Virus record (IMG/VR): IMGVR_UViG_3300034198_022499
Span: 1-34,146 of that record
Length of the DNA: 34,146 bases
Reading direction: 5' to 3' (one strand)
Source of the DNA: a virus
The position numbers and the translations under genes were made by a program. The notes beneath the pieces were generated by a model. That model was not told where the DNA came from. It was given only the letters and a program-made list of their open reading frames with translations, and did no database searches. The first letter of the stretch is position 1, and every line of letters starts with the position of its first letter. Of this stretch, positions 3,856-31,917 are shown in pieces.

Positions 3856-4677
3856 ATGGAAAACAATACAATTGAAGCCGCAAAGAACCCCGGCCTTGCT
3901 AACAAGCTTGCCCAGGAAGCCCTTGCTGTAGACGTAGAACAAGACGCCCCAAAAGAAGCAGTAATCAAACTTCCTTCGGATACTGTCGTTGACCTCCCTG
4001 GTGGGTATATTTCGCCCACTGGGGAGGTTATCAAGACCGCTGAAGTTCGTGAGCTTACTGGACGGGATGAAGAGGTTATCGTCAAGAGCACTACGGTAGG
4101 AAGAATGCTTGGTACGATTCTTTCTCGCGGTGTGGTCTCTATCGGTGGAGAAAAAGCAACGGAATCAATGCTTGACTCTTTGTTTACCGGAGACCGTGAG
4201 GCTCTTCTTCTTGGAATTTACCGCGTAACATTTGGAAACCCCGCTGAGCTTCGTGCTTACTGTGGTGGTTGCGATGACTACAAGGACGTATCCGTAGACC
4301 TTCTTTCGGATATTAAAACAAAGATTCTTGTAGACCCGGTGGAAAACCGTGAGTTTACGGTAAAAGGTAAAAAGCACGAGTACACCGTAATGCTTCCTAC
4401 TGGAATCACTCAAAAGGAGCTTAACAATAACCCAGAGAAGACGTTGTCGGAACTTGGCTCAATTCTTTTGCAGAGCACAGTTGTTGCAATCGATGGGCAA
4501 GTTGTTTACAACAAGGAACAGATTCTTAGTCTGGGTATCTTAGACCGTCGAAAGATTGGCGAAGAAATTTCGCAGCGCAGTCCTGGGCCAAAGTTTGAGG
4601 ACATCAAAGTCACTTGCCCAGAGTGTAACACTGAGGTGGTGGTTCCGATTAGCCTCGGAGGGTTGTTTCAATTTTAG
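3856..4677 (+). CDS. gp26-like tail/baseplate assembly protein with zinc ribbon; upstream part of a frameshift pair
   Basis: A 273-residue protein with the segment VRELTGRDEEVI at about residue 58, two CxxC pairs (C136/C139 and C254/C257) that could form a zinc ribbon, and a C-terminus ending in GGLFQF. This pattern fits the T4 gp26-type baseplate protein family found between tube and tape measure in many contractile systems. There it probably acts as an assembly chaperone or hub factor rather than a bulk virion part. The stop codon TAG directly follows a UUUU run. A second open frame continues for 51 codons beyond it without a usable start codon, so a longer +1 frameshift product of 324 residues is likely. 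Family assignment is from memory of the family pattern. Confidence 0.8.
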   Translation: MENNTIEAAKNPGLANKLAQEALAVDVEQDAPKEAVIKLPSDTVVDLPGGYISPTGEVIKTAEVRELTGRDEEVIVKSTTVGRMLGTILSRGVVSIGGEKATESMLDSLFTGDREALLLGIYRVTFGNPAELRAYCGGCDDYKDVSVDLLSDIKTKILVDPVENREFTVKGKKHEYTVMLPTGITQKELNNNPEKTLSELGSILLQSTVVAIDGQVVYNKEQILSLGILDRRKIGEEISQRSPGPKFEDIKVTCPECNTEVVVPISLGGLFQF

Positions 4678-4678
4678 C
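4657..4678 (+). promoter_or_regulatory. Probable +1 programmed ribosomal frameshift site
   Basis: A Shine-Dalgarno-like GGAGGG (4657-4662) lies inside the gene, nine nt before UUU-UAG-C (4672-4678). A P-site tRNA-Phe on UUU can slip one base forward onto an identical UUU, while the slow UAG stop occupies the A site. Reading then continues as AGC-GCC in the next frame. A stimulatory SD, a slippery codon and a stop are the same elements used at bacterial prfB, though the SD spacing here is longer (nine nt against three). Confidence 0.6.
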
Positions 4679-4831
4679 GCCAAAACCTACGCCGAGCTAT
4701 TTACGGAGTGGACAGCACTAACAAGAAGTTTTAACGGTTGGACTCTTTCTGAGATAAAAGACCTCTCAGTAAGAGAACGGTACAACTGGCTAGAAATAGC
4801 TAAGGGGTACGGAAACTTAGCTAAGGAGTAG
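4676..4831 (+). CDS. Frameshifted C-terminal extension of the gp26-like assembly protein
   Basis: Fifty-one codons in the +1 frame relative to the upstream gene, beginning SAKTYAELFTEWTAL and containing SVRERYNWLEIAKGYG, then TAG. There is no ATG, GTG or TTG in this frame from 4559 onward; the only upstream candidate, a TTG at 4556, lies well inside the previous gene and has no SD. It therefore reads best as an extension made by frameshifting. The pattern (an acidic aromatic start, then a short helix with R-R/E-R-Y/W) resembles the second tail-assembly chaperone product of other phages. It lies just before the tape measure gene, where such pairs are normal. Confidence 0.65.
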   Translation, partial: SAKTYAELFTEWTALTRSFNGWTLSEIKDLSVRERYNWLEIAKGYGNLAKE

Positions 4832-4832
4832 C

Positions 4833-7493
4833 ATGGAAGACAAAGACGCGAGTAGTGTAGCTCGCACCATGGCTACTAGCGCTGCCAAAGAAATCGCTGC
4901 TACCGAAAGAAACACTAAAGCCTTAGAAAGCCTGACCACTGCCACTAAAACTAAGGGCGGTGGAGGCGGTGGTGGTGGCCCTCGAATGCCGGGTGCTCCA
5001 GCTGGGTCGCCTACGGGAAACCAGGGCGGCACAATGATGAGCGGGTCTTTGGCATCCGTTCCGTCGTACCCCTCTACTGGCGCAAGCCGTATGGAAGGCG
5101 GCATGAACCTCCTGGCTGGTGCGCTGGGGGCCGTTGGCGGCTTTGCCAAAGTGGGCATGGCAGCAGTTACGGGCGTTTCTAACTTGATGCCCGAAGTACA
5201 GGCTACGGTTAACCGTGAGGCTCAATTCTACAACGCCTCGGTATCGGGCGGTGGCGGTATGTCTCGCCAAGGACTCAGACAAGCTACTTTTAACGCCATG
5301 AAAGGCGGCATGACCAGTGTCGGCTCTGATGGAATGGTTGGAGAGTTTCTTGCCAGCCGTGGTATGGTCACGGATTCCACCCGTGGTAGTACTTACATGC
5401 AAACGGTGCGAAGTGTTAGCAACGCCGCTAAATACTTAAACATGAGTAATGACCGAGCTGCTGTAGCGGTAGAAGGTCTTACTAGCGGAACGACCTCTCG
5501 TAGTATGCTTCAGAATTTGGGCATTTATACCTCTGATTTAAAAACGGGTAAAGCAAAAACCCAAGGTCAAATAATGAGTGAGATTGGAGACCGGCTTAGT
5601 GCTGGTCGAGGAACCGCCACCGCCGACCAAGTAAACGAGTCTTTCCGTAGAGGTAACTTGGGTGCTTCATTGGCTGGCTTGGGACTGTCAGAAGACCAGC
5701 AACAAATTATGCGTCAATTTTTGGTTGAAAAGGCCAAGGGCAATAACATGGACTTGTCGAGTGATGAGGACATGGCAAAGCTTTCTGAGATGGCTGGGGT
5801 AAACCCAAATCAATCGGGTATGACGATTACCGGTATGCAGACCGGTGCTATGAATAAAGCGGCAGAGCCGTACATCAAAGGTATGCAAGCAGCCGTACCT
5901 GCTATGCAAGCTCTTACCGATGCTTCGGGTATTTTAGCGGAACAGTTTGGTGAAGCTAAAGCCGCCATTGAAACAGTAGCAGGTAGTCGTGAAGGTGGCG
6001 CAGTAATTGGCGCTCTTAAGATGGCTATGGAGGGCCTTACTGAAGTTGTCAGCGGACTAGTAGGCGCTTTTGGTGGCCTCATGTCACTTTTAGGTACGTT
6101 TGGCATTGGCGCTGGGGCTGCTGGTGGTGCGGCTGCTACTGGAGCAGCTGTGGCTGGTACGGCTGCTACTGGAGCAGCTGTGGCTGGTACAGTTGCCGTT
6201 GTTGCGGCTACTCAGGTAGGTTCAAAGCTGGTAAACGATGCTGTTGGGCAACAACTCTCTACTGCCCCAGGCATTGGTGTTGAAAAAAGCGCAGCTTCTT
6301 GGTCTTCTTATTTGTCAACAACTCAAGCGGCGGCTTCAACTGGTGGCGGCTTCGGAATGCCCACGGCAGATGGAAAGGCCGGGGATTTATTTGGGTTTGA
6401 TGCTGGAACTAAAAAATGGCTACAAGAAAACCCTAAATGGGCTAAAGCTCATCCGGGAGATAAACCAGACATTTGGGCACAAATATTTCAAAAAGACTCT
6501 AAGGGTGGACAATCGTCCAGTATTAACGCCAACGGTATTACTGGTTCAGCGGATAAAAAAGGCAACATTACTTTCATTATGCCTGTTCAAGGTAAAATTA
6601 CGGATGGTTTTGGACCGCGTACACCTCCTACTCCAACGTCTTCGTCTTACCACAAAGGTATCGACGTTGCTGCTTCTGAAGGTTCGCCTATCGTTGCTTC
6701 TGCTGAGGGCCAAGTCATTTCTTGTGGCCCGGATGGTTCATACGGTAACGTGACGCGAATTAAGCACCCCAACGGCTACACCACGGTTTATGCTCACCAG
6801 TCTCGCATTGGAGTCCGTATGGGTCAGAATGTACGACAAGGTGAACGTATTGGCGCTGTGGGTACCACGGGAGATTCCACTGGCCCCCACCTTCACTTTG
6901 AAATTAGAAATGCTGGAGGAGCTCCCATTGACCCAATGAAGGTTATCGGTGGCGCATTCAACATGGTTGGCGGTAGCGCGGAAGCACAGACTAGTGGCTG
7001 GGGCGGGAGCGCTGGAGCAGTTGACTTAGACTCAATCATTGACCAACGCGCTAAGCAAAAGGCAGAAGTACCCGCTGCTTTGGGTGGCATGGGAGCCGGT
7101 GGAAGCCGGGGTAACGGCTCGGATACTTTTGGGGCAAAAATTAGCAGCCTAAAGGGCGCTATGAAAGGCTCTAATACTAGCTCAGGCAACAACAACCTGA
7201 CCAATAACCGTATGAGCATTTCTCTCCCTGGCGCACCAAGCGCTAAAACGGGAGACTCCTACGTTGCTCAAGATGGCCCCGTAAACGTTCACGCTGGTGA
7301 GGCTATCCTCAACGCGGACGAAGCCGCTAGTTGGCGCAGGTCCAAAGCTGGAGGTAATAGGGGAGGCGGAAGCAACGTGACTATCAACGTAAGTGTTGCA
7401 CAAGCAAGTGAATCAGAAGCCCGTCGTTTTGCCACAATGATTAAACAGTACATTGACCAAGACGACATGATTAACCGAATGGGAAGTAAATAA
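4833..7493 (+). CDS. Tape measure protein with M23 endopeptidase domain
   Basis: An 886-residue protein that sets tail length and is probably ejected ahead of the DNA. After a polar N-terminus there is a poly-Gly stretch (about residues 46-53). A long helical region follows, then a Gly/Ala-rich hydrophobic stretch (about 395-470) able to cross a membrane. A peptidase M23 (LytM-like) domain lies at about 585-705. It has the zinc and catalytic residues in order: H607-x3-D611, H655, and H686-x-H688 in GPHLHFE. It should cut peptidoglycan cross-links during DNA entry. The last about 60 residues are polar and variable. AAGGAG overlaps the stop of the frameshift extension. A perfect 30-bp tandem duplication lies within the hydrophobic stretch. 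Confidence 0.92.
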   Translation: MEDKDASSVARTMATSAAKEIAATERNTKALESLTTATKTKGGGGGGGGPRMPGAPAGSPTGNQGGTMMSGSLASVPSYPSTGASRMEGGMNLLAGALGAVGGFAKVGMAAVTGVSNLMPEVQATVNREAQFYNASVSGGGGMSRQGLRQATFNAMKGGMTSVGSDGMVGEFLASRGMVTDSTRGSTYMQTVRSVSNAAKYLNMSNDRAAVAVEGLTSGTTSRSMLQNLGIYTSDLKTGKAKTQGQIMSEIGDRLSAGRGTATADQVNESFRRGNLGASLAGLGLSEDQQQIMRQFLVEKAKGNNMDLSSDEDMAKLSEMAGVNPNQSGMTITGMQTGAMNKAAEPYIKGMQAAVPAMQALTDASGILAEQFGEAKAAIETVAGSREGGAVIGALKMAMEGLTEVVSGLVGAFGGLMSLLGTFGIGAGAAGGAAATGAAVAGTAATGAAVAGTVAVVAATQVGSKLVNDAVGQQLSTAPGIGVEKSAASWSSYLSTTQAAASTGGGFGMPTADGKAGDLFGFDAGTKKWLQENPKWAKAHPGDKPDIWAQIFQKDSKGGQSSSINANGITGSADKKGNITFIMPVQGKITDGFGPRTPPTPTSSSYHKGIDVAASEGSPIVASAEGQVISCGPDGSYGNVTRIKHPNGYTTVYAHQSRIGVRMGQNVRQGERIGAVGTTGDSTGPHLHFEIRNAGGAPIDPMKVIGGAFNMVGGSAEAQTSGWGGSAGAVDLDSIIDQRAKQKAEVPAALGGMGAGGSRGNGSDTFGAKISSLKGAMKGSNTSSGNNNLTNNRMSISLPGAPSAKTGDSYVAQDGPVNVHAGEAILNADEAASWRRSKAGGNRGGGSNVTINVSVAQASESEARRFATMIKQYIDQDDMINRMGSK
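6130..6189 (+). repeat. Perfect 30-bp tandem duplication in the tape measure gene
   Basis: Two identical 30-bp units (6130-6159 and 6160-6189) each encode ten residues around AATGAAVAGT within the hydrophobic Gly/Ala stretch. The repeat keeps the frame. Because tape measure length sets tail length, gain or loss of a unit could change the tail slightly. Confidence 0.95.
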
Positions 7494-17625: not shown

Positions 17626-18672
17626 ATGAATCTACCTCCTGAATTTTTTGCGACGGAACTTACGGCAACGGAATTTAAAGTCGTTGTTTCGCTGTACCAT
17701 CTATCCGGCCCTGAGTGGCTCGTAGAAGCGACAACAGATGAACTTGGGGTGCTGACTGGTTATAGCGCTGAAAGTCTGCGACGCGCCTTCAGGGGGCTGG
17801 AGAAGGCAGGTCTGTTGGACACGGTCCGTACCAAGCGCAACTTTGGCAAGTGGTCTAAGAACCGTTACCAGTTGGTTTTACCATCCCACAATACTGTGGA
17901 TTTGAAGCCGGAACCATCCCTCGTATCTGTGGGGTGGTCAGAGCCACCATCCCACAAATCTGTGGGGTCAACACGTGGTACTACATGGCTACCTGCCCCA
18001 GCTATTAACTATAATAACTACAAAACTAGTGTGATAAAGAATACTTCGTATTCTTTACGGAACACCGAAAGTGTTCCGCTAATGAAGGGTGTGAATGTGG
18101 AAAAATGGAAACCTCTCGGTGAAGATACGACCGGCGATGATGACATTGGAGGCTTTGGTCTTTTCGATGATGAGGTCCCGGCTATGCAGAAGCCCAAGCT
18201 CAGCATGAACAAGAAAGACCCCAAGACTCGGGGTCGCCGCCCAGAATCTGAGTGGACCCCGTTTGACGTTGCCGTCGAGTTTCAGTTTCAACTTGGTCGC
18301 CGTTTTCCGTACATTCCAGGTTTGGTAAACACCCGTGCCGTTGCCGGTGCGTTGCGCGGTTATCGATTCAAGGTTAAAACCACTGGGGATATCGAGATGG
18401 AAATTATGCGGATGTTTTTTGAGGACGAGCGTAATCTGCGCAACGCTGATGAGCAAGCAAGCACAATCCACACTCGTTACCTCAGCATGTTCAAGACTCA
18501 CATGACGCGGGCGTATGAACGACTGGGCCTAGACTCGCCGGTTTTTAAACAAGACCAAGCAGAACCAGTTCAGCATGTGTATGCTTCTGACGGTAAGCAG
18601 TTTGTAAATTCTCTCTTGGGCCGAAAGAGGATGGCTGAGTACGAATCAAAGTTGACCCAGAAGGGACACTAG
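17626..18672 (+). CDS. Winged-helix replication initiator (lambda O-like layout)
   Basis: A 348-residue protein. Residues about 8-90 form a winged-helix domain: LTATEFKVVVSLYHLSG, TTDELGVLTGYSAESLRRAFR, GLEKAGLLDTVRT and NRYQLV. Residues about 90-190 are a low-complexity linker that includes three 11-residue repeats starting PSHNTV, PSLVSV and PSHKSV. Residues about 205-310 are a helical C-terminal domain (WTPFDVAVEFQFQLGRRF). The next gene is a DnaC-like loader and the helicase follows soon after, so this protein probably binds the origin and recruits the loader. The DNA for its linker carries three iterons, an AT-rich stretch and hairpins. No strong sequence match to lambda O is claimed; the similarity is in architecture. 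Confidence 0.75.
   Translation: MNLPPEFFATELTATEFKVVVSLYHLSGPEWLVEATTDELGVLTGYSAESLRRAFRGLEKAGLLDTVRTKRNFGKWSKNRYQLVLPSHNTVDLKPEPSLVSVGWSEPPSHKSVGSTRGTTWLPAPAINYNNYKTSVIKNTSYSLRNTESVPLMKGVNVEKWKPLGEDTTGDDDIGGFGLFDDEVPAMQKPKLSMNKKDPKTRGRRPESEWTPFDVAVEFQFQLGRRFPYIPGLVNTRAVAGALRGYRFKVKTTGDIEMEIMRMFFEDERNLRNADEQASTIHTRYLSMFKTHMTRAYERLGLDSPVFKQDQAEPVQHVYASDGKQFVNSLLGRKRMAEYESKLTQKGH
17881..17965 (+). repeat. Three 19-bp iterons at a 33-bp period
   Basis: The units are CCATCCCACAATACTGTGG (17881-17899), CCATCCCTCGTATCTGTGG (17914-17932) and CCATCCCACAAATCTGTGG (17947-17965), each preceded by A and separated by 14 nt. Copies 1 and 3 agree at 17 of 19 bases, copies 2 and 3 at 16. Units 1 and 3 contain the dyad CCACA-N4-TGTGG. 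The 33-bp step is about three helical turns, placing all three on one face of the DNA, and it also keeps the reading frame. Confidence 0.9.
18035..18078 (+). repeat. Two abutting perfect hairpins
   Basis: TAAAGAATAC-TTC-GTATTCTTTA (18035-18057) is a 10-bp stem with a three-base loop. CGGAACAC (18058-18065) pairs with GTGTTCCG (18071-18078) around a five-base loop. They touch with no bases between them and lie inside the initiator reading frame, beside the AT-rich stretch. They may be structures used when the origin is single-stranded, or binding sites. Confidence 0.85.
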
Positions 18673-19392
18673 GTGTTCAAGATTGAATCTCTTCCCCCAG
18701 TAAAGCGTTACTGGTTGGCGAAGAACTCAAACATTCCAGTGCGCTACCTTCAATGGGATTTTGAGGACATCGAAAAAGACATGGGGACAATCCCTACCGA
18801 TTTGACCGACTGGATGAACGACCTTCTTTCTGGGGAAATCATCATGAAGGCTGGCAACTTAGGGAAGACCGGTTTGGGAATTTTGTTTGACGGTTCTCCG
18901 GGACGAGGAAAGACTACGCACGCTGTAGCCATTCTCAACGAGTTTATCCGGGCGCTTCCCGAAGACGACCGCGCTTCTGCCCTAATGCACGTACACCCGT
19001 CTTCCTACGGGCACAAGTTTCGCCCCATCTATTACATGACCTACACGGATTTCCTGTACCGCAAGAAGGCTATCTTTGATGCCGACTCAGACGTTCGTGC
19101 AAGCCTTCAGGATGAAATGGATGGGTTCCACGGTCGTTGCCGTGATGACGCTTACAACGTTCGCTTGCTTGTCCTTGATGATTTGGGTAAAGAGTACGGC
19201 TCTAAATACGACGACTATTCTTTTGACGATATTTTGCGCACTCGATACGACAAGGGTCTTCCCACGATTATCACTACTAACGTAGAGATGGAGAAGTGGG
19301 ACAAAATGTACTCTGAAGCAATGGGTAGTTTCGCCCATGAAGCTTTTTTAAGGGTTAAACTAGAAGGAGAAGACCTCAGGAGGGGACAGTGA
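18673..19392 (+). CDS. DnaC-like replicative helicase loader ATPase
   Basis: A 239-residue AAA+ protein that should load the phage DnaB-like helicase at the origin. Walker A is GSPGRGKT (residues 74-81) and Walker B is LLVLDDLG (D169, D170). A sensor-type TIITTN follows, with DDILRTRYDKG between, the usual place of an arginine-bearing helix in DnaC/IstB-type ATPases. It starts with GTG directly after the initiator stop, with AGAAGG upstream. It is followed by a SWIM-finger gene, overlapping by four bases. Confidence 0.88.
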   Translation: MFKIESLPPVKRYWLAKNSNIPVRYLQWDFEDIEKDMGTIPTDLTDWMNDLLSGEIIMKAGNLGKTGLGILFDGSPGRGKTTHAVAILNEFIRALPEDDRASALMHVHPSSYGHKFRPIYYMTYTDFLYRKKAIFDADSDVRASLQDEMDGFHGRCRDDAYNVRLLVLDDLGKEYGSKYDDYSFDDILRTRYDKGLPTIITTNVEMEKWDKMYSEAMGSFAHEAFLRVKLEGEDLRRGQ

Positions 19393-21377: not shown

Positions 21378-22354
21378 TGAACGTAGATATTGAGAGCGTC
21401 CTTATTGAGCTGGGCATTGACTTTGATGTTCGTGGCAATGAAGCCAACGGGCTATGCCCTATGCACTACGAGCGTGTTGGTAGGAAAGACAACTCGCCAT
21501 CATGGTGGATAAACCTTGAGACCGGTCAACACATTTGTTTCTCTTGTCACTACAGCGGAGGCTTACTACATTTAGTCTGCGATGTCAAGGGTTTTTTCAT
21601 AGAATCTTGGGGAGATTTACACGACCCAGATTACACTTCCGCAAAGGTGTGGTTGGCTAATGTTGCCCAGATTTCCCCTGAGCGTCTGGCCCAAGCACTG
21701 ACCGACATGCCTCGCTTTGCTCAGTCATACGATAAGCCAATCGAGATGTCTGACGCCCGTCTTGCGGTTTACTCCGACCCTCCACTAGAACAGTTGCTTG
21801 CTAAAAACATTACTCTTGAATCTGCTCAGGTTTACGGAATCCTTTGGGACACCAAGACCGACTCTTGGGTTCTTCCGCTTCGTGACCCACACACGGGTAA
21901 GCTTCTCGGTTGGCAAGAAAAAGGTACTCTGAACAGGCGTTTCATGAACCGTCCCCCAGGCCTAGCCAAGTCTAAAACACTATTTGGCGTGGATATTATG
22001 CCGGATGAACTGACCATACTTGTGGAATCTCCTTTGGACTGCGCACGAATTTACTCTGCCGGATTTCATGGAGCCGTTGCAGTGTGTGGCTCTATCATCA
22101 GCGACGCCCAGGTAAAACTGATACGTAATTCAGACCGCGTAATTTCTGCTTTAGATAATCCGAAGGTAGACGATGCGGGGCGTAAAGGTTCGGCAGACTT
22201 GATTTCCCTTAGCAGTCGTTACGGGTTAAATCTTTCTTTCTTCAATTACGGAGACTCAGGTAAAAAAGACCCAGGAGACATGACGGACGACGAAATCGCT
22301 TGGGGATTAGAACATGCGGTATCATCGTTGTACGGAGAAAGCGCATATGTTTAA
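21377..22354 (+). CDS. DNA primase with zinc-binding and Toprim domains
   Basis: A 325-residue primase that makes RNA primers for lagging-strand synthesis. The N-terminal zinc-binding site is C27-x2-H30 with C54-x2-C57, in GLCPMH and CFSC. The Toprim domain starts with the acidic E217 (ILVESPLDCARIYSAG). It continues with D260 in ALDNPKVDDAGRKG, a DN-x4-DAG arrangement longer than the compact DND-x-AG of DnaG and T7 primase. KKDPGDM near the end matches the last conserved Toprim segment. The helicase is encoded by the previous gene, with overlapping stop and start, so the two are probably made together. Confidence 0.88.
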   Translation: MNVDIESVLIELGIDFDVRGNEANGLCPMHYERVGRKDNSPSWWINLETGQHICFSCHYSGGLLHLVCDVKGFFIESWGDLHDPDYTSAKVWLANVAQISPERLAQALTDMPRFAQSYDKPIEMSDARLAVYSDPPLEQLLAKNITLESAQVYGILWDTKTDSWVLPLRDPHTGKLLGWQEKGTLNRRFMNRPPGLAKSKTLFGVDIMPDELTILVESPLDCARIYSAGFHGAVAVCGSIISDAQVKLIRNSDRVISALDNPKVDDAGRKGSADLISLSSRYGLNLSFFNYGDSGKKDPGDMTDDEIAWGLEHAVSSLYGESAYV

Positions 22355-23915
22355 AGGTACCCTCAAGCCTTACCAGGTAGAAGCCGTTGATAAAATGGTG
22401 GACCTGCAAGCGGTACTTGTTGCGTATGAAATGGGTCTGGGTAAAACTCCCATGACAATCTCCGCAATTGAGAACTTGAGAGATAAGGGAACGGTAACCA
22501 AAACCGTCCTTGTCCTCTGTCTTGCAAGCCTTAAATATCAATGGCAAAAAGAGATTACTAAGTTCAGCGATTCAACGGCTGTAGTTATTGACGGCACACC
22601 TAAACAGCGACTTGCTTTGTACGAGGTATACCAAAAGTATGACTACATCATCATGAACTACGAACAAGTGGTCAATGATTGGGAAACCATTAGCAAAATG
22701 GATTTTGACGCCATCATTTGTGACGAAGCAACTGCCATCAAAGGGTTCCGGTCAAAACGGTCTCGTAAAGTAAAAGACCTAGCAAAGAATGTTTCCATCA
22801 GGTTTGCTTTGACAGGGACTCCCATTGAGAATGGACGCCCAGAAGAAATCTTCTCTATTATGCAATTTGTCAATAAAGACGTTTTGGGAAGGTTTGACCT
22901 TTTTGATAAAACATTTATTGTTCGCAATCATTTCGGCGGTGTTCAACGTTACCGAAATCTTCCTGTTCTAAATACCTCCCTCATAGAACACACCGTTCGT
23001 AAATCGCAAACCGATGAAGACGTAAAACCTTTCCTACCAGACGCGGTTTATCGAGAGCCTTTGTTGGTTTCTTTAGACAGCAAAAACAAAGCTGTTTATG
23101 AGTTTATTGCGCAAGACTTAGTCAACTTGTTGACCGAAGCCAGCCAGATGTTTGGAGCAGGGTTTAGCCTTGCGGCACATTACGGTCAGACTCAAGCACC
23201 TAACGACCCGGCAAATGAGCTGCGCGGTCAAATTATGTCCAGGATTACAGCGCTAAGGATGCTGTGCTCTCACCCCAACCTTTTGTGGGACAGTTACCGT
23301 AACTTTGAGAACCACACAGGAAAAGGAAGTGCTTATATTCACTCCTTAGGAGACGCAGGACTCTTGGATGACCTGTATAAGTCACCCAAACAAGATGCCA
23401 CAATGGCTTACCTGTCCGAACACTTGAGCATTGACTCTTCTTACAAAGCCGTTGTTTTTGCTTCCTACCTGGGTTCCGTTGACTCACTGGTGAAGAAACT
23501 TGCTGAAAAGAAAATAAACGCAGTTCCTTATACCGGAGAAATGAATGCCAAAGAAAAAGAAAAAGCAAAAGTCAAGTTTCAGACTGAGCCAGAAGTACGC
23601 GTTCTTGTATCTTCGGACGCAGGGGGTTATGGAGTCGATTTACCGCAAGCCAATCTTCTTGTCAATTACGACCAGCCTTGGTCGGCAGGTCTTTCCGTAC
23701 AAAGAAACGGAAGAATCAACCGAACCTCCTCGACTTGGCCCACAATAACTATCCAAGACATTTTGGTTAAAGACTCAATTGAACAACGGCAATACGACAT
23801 GCTGAAACAAAAGAACGCTATAGCAGATGCCGTACTGGATGGTCAGGGCATTAACTCTCGTGGCGGTATTGACCTCACAGTAGGTAGCCTGATAGGATTT
23901 CTCACTAATAGTTAG
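22347..23915 (+). CDS. SNF2-type DEAD-box helicase/ATPase
   Basis: A 522-residue superfamily 2 ATPase. Motif I is EMGLGKT (G30-T34) and motif II is CDEAT (D126-E127). Motif III is LTGTPIENG, and motifs V and VI are VSSDAGGYGVDLPQ and VQRNGRINRTSS. This is the SWI2/SNF2 arrangement, and phage members act in branch migration, recombination or replication restart (UvsW-like role). The ATG at 22347 is chosen for GGAG upstream and the match of FKGTLKPYQ to the usual start of motif Q; an ATG at 22314 would add 11 residues. It overlaps the primase gene by eight bases. Confidence 0.88.
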   Translation: MFKGTLKPYQVEAVDKMVDLQAVLVAYEMGLGKTPMTISAIENLRDKGTVTKTVLVLCLASLKYQWQKEITKFSDSTAVVIDGTPKQRLALYEVYQKYDYIIMNYEQVVNDWETISKMDFDAIICDEATAIKGFRSKRSRKVKDLAKNVSIRFALTGTPIENGRPEEIFSIMQFVNKDVLGRFDLFDKTFIVRNHFGGVQRYRNLPVLNTSLIEHTVRKSQTDEDVKPFLPDAVYREPLLVSLDSKNKAVYEFIAQDLVNLLTEASQMFGAGFSLAAHYGQTQAPNDPANELRGQIMSRITALRMLCSHPNLLWDSYRNFENHTGKGSAYIHSLGDAGLLDDLYKSPKQDATMAYLSEHLSIDSSYKAVVFASYLGSVDSLVKKLAEKKINAVPYTGEMNAKEKEKAKVKFQTEPEVRVLVSSDAGGYGVDLPQANLLVNYDQPWSAGLSVQRNGRINRTSSTWPTITIQDILVKDSIEQRQYDMLKQKNAIADAVLDGQGINSRGGIDLTVGSLIGFLTNS

Positions 23916-28983: not shown

Positions 28984-29166
28984 ATGAAGACTAATATGGA
29001 TGCAATGGTAGAGACTCACGAAATGGACGAGTGGATTAGCAAGGCGTACATTCGCGGACGCGAGTTTGAGCGTGACCGTATCGTCAACATTCTAATGAAG
29101 AATGACGCCGACTCAAAGCTCGACCTTATTCTAAGCAGTTTCTGGAGCGCTAATGACGACCATTAA
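28984..29166 (+). CDS. Small protein with an ER-rich helix
   Basis: A 60-residue protein from the ATG at 28984, which has AAGGA upstream; an ATG at 28951 would add 11 residues and overlap the previous stop. Its main feature is KAYIRGREFERDRIVNIL, a charged amphipathic helix. Two other small proteins encoded near the right end (32596 and 32886) share a similar GxxxERxxI-helix. Function unknown. It precedes the RecA-like gene, overlapping by 14 bases. Confidence 0.65.
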   Translation: MKTNMDAMVETHEMDEWISKAYIRGREFERDRIVNILMKNDADSKLDLILSSFWSANDDH

Positions 29167-30205
29167 TCCCGAAGCCAAAAAAATTATGGCAGCAATCAAT
29201 AAGCGCTTTGGCGATAACATTGCTGTCATTGGACAAGACATCCGACAAGACCTAATCAAAAGTATTACAACAGGTTCCACAACTTTTGATTACATTCTTG
29301 GTGGGGGGTTTCCCGCTAACCAATGGAACGAACTTGTGGGCGACCCCAGTCACGGTAAAACTGCTCTTGCACTCAAATGTATAGCCGCTAATCAAGCCAT
29401 CAAGGAAGACCACACAACGGTATGGATTGCTGCTGAGCAGTGGGTTCCAGATTACGCAGAGTTGTGTGGCGTGGATACCAGCCGAGTGATAGTCGTTGAA
29501 ACCAACATCATGGAAGAGGCTTACGACGCTGTGTTGGCGTTTGCTGAGTCTAAGTCCATTGATGCTATTGTCATTGACTCTCTACCCGCCCTAGTTCCAA
29601 GTCCAGAAAATGACAAGAACATGGATGAAATGACAGTTGGTCGTGGTGCGCTTATTACAAATAAGTTTTTCCGCAAAGCCGGTTCAGCGATGAAGCGGAG
29701 TCTCGTTGAGGCCGAACGACCAGTTCTTGGGATTGTCATTAACCAATACCGCATGAAGATTGGTGTCATGCACGGGGACCCACGTACTACACCAGGAGGA
29801 CAAGGTAAAGATTACGCGTACTTTACCAAGTGCGAAGTTCGTCGTGACGAGTGGATTGAAGCTGGAACGGGTACCAACAAAGTGCGAGTAGGCCAACGAA
29901 TGAAAATTCGTACCACCAAAAATAAGGTAGCCCCACCACAGCGTGTTGCTTACGTAGACTTTTACTTTCAAGACCACGGCATTTATGGTGCCGGAGATTT
30001 TGATTTTGCCAAAGAAATTGCGTCTATGGCAATTGTAAAGGGAATCGTAGACCGTAAAGGTGGCTGGATTTATTACGGTGAACGTAAATGGCAGGGACAA
30101 GAAAACCTTGTGAACTCGATTCGTGAAGAAGTTGACCTCATGGAAGACTTGCGAGAAAAAGTTTTGCACACACCGGACAGCATTATGGAGGCCATGAGTG
30201 AGTAA
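29153..30205 (+). CDS. RecA-like recombinase
   Basis: A 350-residue strand-exchange ATPase for recombination-dependent replication and repair. Walker A is GDPSHGKT (residues 63-70), the catalytic acid is E95 (WIAAEQWVPDYAEL) and Walker B is IVIDS (D142). RPVLGIVINQYR matches the L1/L2-adjacent Asn-Gln segment of RecA and UvsX. A C-terminal lobe follows. It is slightly shorter than bacterial RecA. GGAG lies just before the ATG. The genome also encodes an SNF2-type helicase, a gp32-like protein and resolvases, so a full recombination set is present. Confidence 0.92.
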   Translation: MTTINPEAKKIMAAINKRFGDNIAVIGQDIRQDLIKSITTGSTTFDYILGGGFPANQWNELVGDPSHGKTALALKCIAANQAIKEDHTTVWIAAEQWVPDYAELCGVDTSRVIVVETNIMEEAYDAVLAFAESKSIDAIVIDSLPALVPSPENDKNMDEMTVGRGALITNKFFRKAGSAMKRSLVEAERPVLGIVINQYRMKIGVMHGDPRTTPGGQGKDYAYFTKCEVRRDEWIEAGTGTNKVRVGQRMKIRTTKNKVAPPQRVAYVDFYFQDHGIYGAGDFDFAKEIASMAIVKGIVDRKGGWIYYGERKWQGQENLVNSIREEVDLMEDLREKVLHTPDSIMEAMSE

Positions 30206-30747: not shown

Positions 30748-31060
30748 AGACGAATCCTGGCGCGACGATGCGCAGTGCAATGGTGTAGACACGGAGTTGT
30801 TTTTTCCCCCAAGAGACAAGGACCTTTACAGAAGTATTGCCGCTAAAGCCAAACTCCATTGTTTTGGTGCCAATGGAAGACCTGAGTGTCCGGTCAGAGT
30901 CCAGTGCCTTCTTTACGCCATTGAAACAGACGAGGTGCACGGAATTTGGGGAGGTATGAGTCACAGAGAACGTAACGCCTTGCTCAGAAAATGGAAAAAA
31001 AGCCCCCACAGTTCGATGCCCATTAAAGATTACATAGAGTTGGTGAGTAAGAAAAGATAA
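30740..31060 (+). CDS. WhiB-family iron-sulfur regulator
   Basis: A 106-residue protein with the layout of WhiB-like (Wbl) transcription factors. W7-R-D-D-A-Q-C13 comes first, followed by C41, C50 and C56 for a [4Fe-4S] cluster, then HGIWGGMSHRER, matching the G[IV]WGG turn that links to the basic DNA-binding tail. Spacing is C41-x8-C50-x5-C56; the usual form is C-x2-C-x5-C, so six extra residues sit between two cluster ligands. Wbl proteins are almost exclusive to Actinobacteria and their phages. Phage versions can displace host WhiB regulators and block superinfection or septation. Confidence 0.85.
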   Translation: MLRDESWRDDAQCNGVDTELFFPPRDKDLYRSIAAKAKLHCFGANGRPECPVRVQCLLYAIETDEVHGIWGGMSHRERNALLRKWKKSPHSSMPIKDYIELVSKKR

Positions 31061-31917
31061 TGGTTGATAAAAAGTCTGACCTCAAAATGTTTTTGGATAC
31101 TACATCCAAACCCTCTCGCCTTATTGGTTCTGTTGAACGGTACATTCTGTCTAGGCCACCTGGAGACCGTTCTACCACAGTGTTGCACCCGTCAGAAATC
31201 ATTAAAAAAGATTGGTGCCATCGAGCAGCCTATTTTCTTCTTCAAGGAAAACCTAAGGCTCCTGACCGTTTTCCTTTGCGTGTACAAAGCATTTTTGACG
31301 AAGGCCATGCCATCCATTACAAATGGCAACGTTGGTTTCAAGACATGGGTGTCTTGTACGGCAGGTTTATCTGCTCGGCTTGTGATGATGTAACTCTGGG
31401 CACTTCCCCAAAAGAATGCCTACACTGCCAAGCCCCATGGACCAAGCTAACCTACGACGAAGTAACTTTGTATGACGATTCCCTCCGCATTAAAGGGCAC
31501 ACCGACGGTTGGATTAAAGGAATCAAAGAAGACTGCTTGATTGAGATAAAGTCAATAGGTCCTGGTACCTTGCGAAGTGAAGTTCCCCACCTTTTTCCTG
31601 ATAACAACGGGGACTTTATGAAGGTGTGGGGGAACATTCGACGACCGTTTTCTCCCCACATTATGCAGGGGCAAATGTACCTTGAACTTATGAAGCGAAT
31701 GGGCACCCCAGTAAATGAAATTGTTTTTTTGTACGAGCTTAAAGCAGACCAATCGTACAAAGAGTTTTCTGTTAAACCTGATTATGAACTTGTTCGTCAT
31801 GTTTTTGACGCCGCACGGCAAGTCGTAAACGCGGTTGAAGAAAACACTGCCCCATCATGTAATGTAGGACCTAAAGGGTCGTGCAAGCAATGCGCGCCAT
31901 ATAAGGAGGAGTCATGA
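31060..31917 (+). CDS. Cas4-like PD-(D/E)XK nuclease with Fe-S cysteines
   Basis: A 285-residue protein. Active-site residues are D149 (GHTDGWI) and E162-I-K164 (LIEIKS). H68-like histidines sit in GHAIHYKWQRW, and QGQMYLEL fits the QxxxY motif IV. C53 near the N-terminus and C267, C275 and C278 near the C-terminus fit the four-cysteine [4Fe-4S] pattern of Cas4 and AddB nucleases. A further pair of CxxC (C105/C108 and C120/C123) lies in an inserted zinc-ribbon-like loop. No CRISPR array or cas1 is present, so this is probably a phage recombination or DNA-processing nuclease. It starts at an ATG overlapping the WhiB stop. Confidence 0.85.
   Translation: MVDKKSDLKMFLDTTSKPSRLIGSVERYILSRPPGDRSTTVLHPSEIIKKDWCHRAAYFLLQGKPKAPDRFPLRVQSIFDEGHAIHYKWQRWFQDMGVLYGRFICSACDDVTLGTSPKECLHCQAPWTKLTYDEVTLYDDSLRIKGHTDGWIKGIKEDCLIEIKSIGPGTLRSEVPHLFPDNNGDFMKVWGNIRRPFSPHIMQGQMYLELMKRMGTPVNEIVFLYELKADQSYKEFSVKPDYELVRHVFDAARQVVNAVEENTAPSCNVGPKGSCKQCAPYKEES

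Follow-up and report, generated by a model that had tools for sequence, protein, structure and literature searches.

Does the middle of a phage initiator gene also serve as the place where replication of the phage begins? The origins of large lytic phages, especially those of Actinobacteria, are mostly unmapped, and an earlier note on one uncultured phage contig had proposed that a gene for a winged-helix protein conceals an origin of the lambda type. Here we take up that proposal for the window, by which we mean the whole stretch of DNA analysed (34,146 nt; IMGVR_UViG_3300034198_022499, positions 1–34,146), in which the gene under study occupies positions 17,626–18,672. We computed the structure of the repeat element, its conservation as DNA, the covariation of its palindromes, the matching of recognition helix to iteron and the signal for an internal start; on these sequence data, and with a probability that we put at roughly 0.78, the element is a phage replication origin lying within its own initiator gene and working like the lambda origin and the origins of RepA_N plasmids.

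The phage and its initiator gene

The window encodes a tail sheath, a baseplate wedge, DnaB, a DnaG-type primase and a family A polymerase, in keeping with the earlier description of a contractile phage with its own helicase, primase and polymerase. The nearest cultured phages by DnaB, family A polymerase and tail sheath (32–48% identity) are the Streptomyces phages BRock, GiJojo, LuckySocke, Alone3 and pSt2308, and because this BRock group is closest by helicase, polymerase and sheath, the host is probably an actinobacterium. Elsewhere in the window lie a tape-measure-sized tail protein (4833–7493) with a peptidase/endolysin-type domain near residues 580–715 and, in the replication module, an SNF2-type helicase, RecA and a weak match to a Cas4-like nuclease (22314–23915, 29153–30205 and 31060–31917).

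Relatives of the initiator are encoded on about 70 uncultured phage contigs. Our comparisons draw on 75 loci from IMG/VR, plus others recovered by DNA pattern alone, and most locus counts below refer to the 51 relatives that are non-redundant at the linker. Protein and DNA searches of the cultured phage collection gave no detectable initiator homologue, such that the five Streptomyces phages resemble the window phage in DnaB, polymerase and sheath but not in this gene, and no relative was confirmed in bacterial and archaeal genomes. The small proteins that precede the loader gene in actinophages ET08, E3 and pSt2308 were considered as separate versions of the initiator; those compared, that of pSt2308 among them, have no detectable relation to it. 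When 2.9 million viral contigs were scanned for the DNA of the element alone, 50 stretches came back, all of which belong to the initiator family except two chance matches (L100 and L133). In three contigs of 91–95 kb (L148–L152, L153–L157 and L158–L162) the first and last pieces share end sequence, and these genomes are thus probably complete.

The initiator's match to phrog_678 spans residues 25–157 (E 1e-7); lambda O matches the same family with E 1.7e-35, and between the initiator and lambda O itself a direct comparison gives a weak match (E 0.01). AlphaFold2 models residues 1–83 as a winged helix, 91–180 as a disordered linker with pLDDT below 50 and about 195–348 as a helical C-terminal domain, a layout which places the element in linker-coding DNA, between the same two domains as the earlier note had it. 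The best solved structures for the winged helix are those of the plasmid RepA N-terminal domain (4pql, 4pt7 and 5kbj, Z about 9–10), and the Pfam RepA_N model has no significant sequence match in the initiator. For the C-terminal domain there is no clear structural relative: the best match is to residues 30–119 of lambda P, at a structural Z of 5.2 with a non-significant profile comparison, and we do not claim lambda P as a relative; nor was a link between this domain and known loader partners established. The DnaC-like loader gene expected behind the initiator is indeed there, its GTG start at the base directly after the initiator's stop codon (Table 1).

Table 1. Positions in the window of the initiator gene, the element that it contains and the neighbouring loader gene.
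Feature	Position	Strand	Basis
Initiator gene, 348 aa	17626–18672	+	PHROG 678 'replication initiation O-like', E 1e-7; AlphaFold2 domains
Winged-helix-coding part, recognition helix SAESLRR	17626–17874	+	Best solved match plasmid RepA N-terminal domain
Iteron 1 (ACCATCCCACAATACTGTGGATT)	17880–17902	+	Pattern scan
Iteron 2 (ACCATCCCTCGTATCTGTGGGGT), left half most degenerate	17913–17935	+	Pattern scan
Iteron 3 (ACCATCCCACAAATCTGTGGGGT), perfect 6-4-6 palindrome within	17946–17968	+	Pattern scan
TCAACA, conserved junction of last iteron and AT-rich stretch; in relatives usually TCAACAGC	17968–17973	+	Relatives
Putative unwinding element, an AT-rich stretch (78% AT) that takes in hairpin 1	18004–18057	+	Most AT-rich 54-mer class in window
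Palindrome/hairpin 1: TAAAGAATAC ttc GTATTCTTTA, 10 bp, loop TTC	18035–18057	.	Covariation, shuffles
Palindrome/hairpin 2: CGGAACAC cgaaa GTGTTCCG, 8 bp, loop CGAAA	18058–18078	.	44/44 loci with hairpin 1
Shine-Dalgarno-like AAGGG ahead of internal start	18085–18089	+	Start-signal scan
Predicted nested in-frame product, residues 158–348, C-terminal domain alone, from GTG 18097	18097–18672	+	Shine-Dalgarno and start conservation
DnaC-like helicase loader (AAA+ ATPase)	18673–19392	+	phrog_50, E 1.5e-26; IstB family, E 8e-7

Iterons, AT-rich stretch and paired palindromes

Copies of ACCATCCCaca..TGTGGggt begin at 17880, 17913 and 17946, which bears out the three iterons with an exact 33-bp period that had been reported. 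The pattern CATCCCNCNNNNCTGTGG with up to two mismatches finds all three and one off-site match with two mismatches, a total of four that no shuffle reaches (0/100), and synonymous-codon shuffles of the initiator gene never equal the triple (0/300). The iterons are near-palindromes, that is, inverted repeats themselves like those of lambda, and the third holds a perfect 6+4+6 palindrome (CCCACA-AATC-TGTGGG). Relatives share the order of iterons, TCAACA, AT-rich stretch, two hairpins and loader gene. The iteron sequence varies greatly among them, with palindromy kept in most; many loci space their iterons by 33 bp, others by about 24–30, 36, 42, 45 or 54 bp.

Iteron number varies as well, from five down to a single half-site: of the 51 non-redundant loci, roughly 30 carry at least two and about 8 a single one; the remainder, about 13, retain a half-site only, which adjoins TCAACA and is accompanied by no iteron arrays elsewhere in those loci. 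The earlier note had held that relatives with the same initiator and no iterons at this place would speak against an origin. The half-site-only loci go part of the way towards that, but the half-site stays at its fixed place; this softens the objection, and a real qualification remains. Two very similar phages (L067 and L079) have unequal iteron numbers, such that copy number changes quickly. In L003 and L029 the last iteron is followed by TAGTAATAATAGTAATAGTAATAGTAGTAA, a run of TAG/TAA triplets adjoining the iterons and not seen in the split-gene relatives described below; it may recall the DnaA-trio elements of bacterial origins, or may be only Ser/Asn codons.

Repeats inside a gene could reflect nothing more than a repeated linker of 11 residues, and the window's copies do all lie in the same frame, 33 being a multiple of three. 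However, the synonymous codons are frozen across the element: where the residue is unchanged, the same codon is used 461 times out of 519 (89%) within it and 1696 times out of 2797 (61%) elsewhere, an odds ratio of 5.2 over 14 relative pairs that partly overlap, some sharing a member, and are thus not fully independent. The DNA is conserved beyond what the protein needs, which is the check that the earlier note had proposed. Shuffles that preserve the protein destroy both repeats and hairpins, and palindromy persists where the encoded peptides differ (PSHNSV, PCLQPEAS, LPPLENEG). Because the AT-rich stretch and both hairpins also stay conserved where the gene is split and they are intergenic, we consider a mere by-product of coding hardly credible.

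The AT-rich stretch noted behind the iterons is confirmed, with 73% AT at 17998–18057 and its densest part in the last 54 bp, a composition equalled by 0.006% of the 54-mers in the window. The two hairpins seen there are likewise real features of the sequence, and abut directly. Across relatives hairpin 1 has a stem of 8–14 bp, a loop that is always TTC or TAC and a constant centre, ATACTWCGTAT; it is present in 44 of the 51 non-redundant loci (60 of 67 sequences), and the hairpins are missing in the other seven. Its covariation scores 0.50, a value that none of 500 shuffles reaches (their score being 0.13); sliding the frame of pairing brings it down to 0.15 or lower. Among 35 distinct versions, both sides have changed in 11 of 12 pairs (83 cells in total), and synonymous shuffles recreate the hairpin in 0 of 1000 trials for the window and in 0 to 19 per 1000 across the loci that have it. 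As these loci had been chosen by perfect stems, the search was repeated with G-U allowed, and G-U then occurs in 2 of 60 loci, at the outermost pair. Hairpin 2 accompanies hairpin 1 in all 44 loci, with 265 Watson–Crick and 6 G-U pairs out of 271. The near absence of G-U from covarying palindromes points to both acting as DNA rather than as RNA structure.

The loop of hairpin 1 on the lower strand is always C-GAA-G or C-GTA-G, and such loops form unusually stable DNA triloops. The DNA parameters used give folding energies that fail to tell one strand of hairpin 1 from the other, and the argument for the lower strand thus depends on loop sequence only. Template switching during replication can in part maintain perfect palindromes of this kind. 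The core motif of hairpin 1 occurs at one site per contig in each of eight contigs of 79–95 kb, always at the initiator gene.

What, then, might the palindromes do? Tentatively, and at rather less than even odds, we suggest that the pair is a distinct origin element acting as folded DNA, whose hairpins would prevent the melted origin from re-closing and steer loading or priming, and which would separate the two products of one gene (or, in one clade, two genes). It is also conceivable, though on balance we doubt it, that only the iterons and AT-rich stretch make up the origin, and that the palindromes serve some other DNA transaction merely beside it, for example as the site of a recombinase or nickase or as a dyad for another protein. 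Their strict palindromy and constant centre would suit such a site, as would their absence from the seven non-redundant loci that keep iterons or half-sites and TCAACA-like junctions. On the other hand, the two palindromes are always kept together, their distance behind TCAACA is always similar, and the start of the C-terminal domain always follows them, all of which argues for a part in the origin itself.

A second start signal and a split form of the gene

Directly past the palindromes, an internal start signal precedes the C-terminal domain. Counting as a start any ATG, GTG or TTG in frame whose Shine-Dalgarno duplex is at least as stable as -5 kcal/mol, we find one in 47 of the 48 non-redundant relatives with a locatable domain boundary, versus 8% of control blocks; that of the window, at -5.5, is among the weaker cases. 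In a clade of five non-redundant relatives (L087 and L089–L092; support 98/92), nested among fused genes, the winged-helix gene stops at a TGA within the half-iteron GTGAACA, leaving the half-site at the coding edge, and a separate gene for the C-terminal domain begins past hairpin 2. The two genes of L089, for example, lie at 3929–4153 and 4268–4801. A further relative, L093, has the same layout and likewise encodes the C-terminal domain separately, while an apparent split in L048 is most likely a one-base assembly error, its near-copy L012 being intact. Together, the conserved internal start and the split clade strongly suggest that the C-terminal domain is also produced alone, as a predicted second product.

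A start signal behind a hairpin invites a regulatory reading, in which the array is an operator through which the winged-helix protein controls transcription of its own gene and the hairpins are RNA elements governing downstream translation. A DNA-binding protein whose putative sites lie within the gene encoding it is what such a reading expects, and in most relatives the internal ribosome-binding site follows closely on hairpin 2. Yet the scarcity of G-U pairs in both hairpins is unlike RNA stems and no Rfam family matches at its threshold, while the AT-rich stretch, the occurrence of the element once per genome and the immediately following loader gene are in keeping with an origin. We therefore think regulation of this kind unlikely as the main role of the element.

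A candidate origin and its precedents

If the winged helix binds the iterons, the two might be expected to change together, and across all the non-redundant loci compared the half-site beside TCAACA does track the recognition helix. Helix RTTxWR goes with G[AC]AAC, GRTSxSK with [CT]GAACA, SRESIR with TTGGC or CTGGC, xESxRR with GTGGG or GTGTG, and GREAxRR and similar helices with GAGG. In a phylogeny built from the C-terminal domain without the winged helix, five changes are inferred, and RTT and GAAAC switch together in each; three of the five fall on well-supported branches. Phylogenetically independent pairs number three, too few for significance, and helix and iteron can travel together by linkage, since they lie within about 200 bp of each other.

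From these features we infer origin function and a scheme of how it might operate. The winged-helix domain would bind the palindromic iterons, probably as one dimer on each, and the array with its bound protein would melt the AT-rich DNA next to it. The phage-encoded DnaB would then be set on the separated strands by the DnaC-like loader together with the initiator's C-terminal domain. The pair of abutting palindromes would delimit the melted region on its far side, most likely folding as hairpins (or a cruciform) on melting, blocking re-closing and marking the place of loading or priming, and the ribosome-binding site just past them would yield the second protein. A GC-skew peak, which the earlier note had thought might mark the origin, does not appear: in three contigs with terminal repeats cumulative skew is weak, with no turn at the site.

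Read as an origin, the element gives this group of uncultured phages a precise, single-copy candidate, and indicates that the lambda plan can coexist with a phage-encoded helicase, primase and polymerase. The relatives also form a natural series (helix versus iteron type, fused versus split genes, iteron arrays of five to a single half-site, palindromes present or absent) from which it may be learned which parts of an origin are needed.

The comparison with lambda gene O holds as to order, lambda likewise having iterons, an AT-rich tract, an inverted repeat and then the P gene. As in the window, the lambda initiator has an N-terminal DNA-binding domain, the origin lies in mid-gene with the loader gene next, and the iterons are palindromic with CCC..GGG ends beside an AT-rich tract (PMC7466680, PMC5043065). 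One relative's iteron (L015/L006, ACCATCCCACGAAAACGAGGGGT) is close to that of lambda (ATCCCTCAAAACGAGGGA). The differences are equally clear. Iterons are spaced by 33 bp in the window, and by 24–45 bp and other distances in relatives, versus 20–24 bp in lambda; the window has two perfect, abutting palindromes, whereas lambda has one, an imperfect inverted repeat of 12 bp after the AT-rich tract; the window's loader is a DnaC-like AAA+ protein and lambda P is not AAA+; and the window's C-terminal domain is not detectably related to lambda O or P. Unlike lambda, the window phage has its own DnaB, primase and polymerase, and a predicted internal start for the C-terminal domain.

Lambda is not the sole precedent, however, as RepA_N plasmid origins also lie in linker-coding DNA (PMC5703833). 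In the staphylococcal pSK41 type, four Rep boxes sit centrally in rep, and the linker is origin-encoded and dispensable (PMC5703833). RepA_N initiators provide the closest solved fold for the winged-helix N-terminal domain and have a separate helical C-terminal domain too, DnaD-like in their case, but theirs is a plasmid system that relies on host proteins, and in the parts of that account available to us paired covarying palindromes, an internal start and an adjacent loader gene are not described (PMC5703833). For the second product, the RepR/RepR' pair of plasmid pIGRK offers a parallel, with an N-terminally shortened initiator likewise made by in-frame internal initiation; the protein family differs, and in-frame Rep pairs, known in plasmids, are called uncommon there (PMC6854812), whereas the start signal is near-universal in the present phage group. 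Neither the paired palindromes nor the hidden second start signal is known from lambda. The arrangement as a whole is a variant of a known plan, to which the paired DNA palindromes, the conserved internal start, the split form and the phage context are new.
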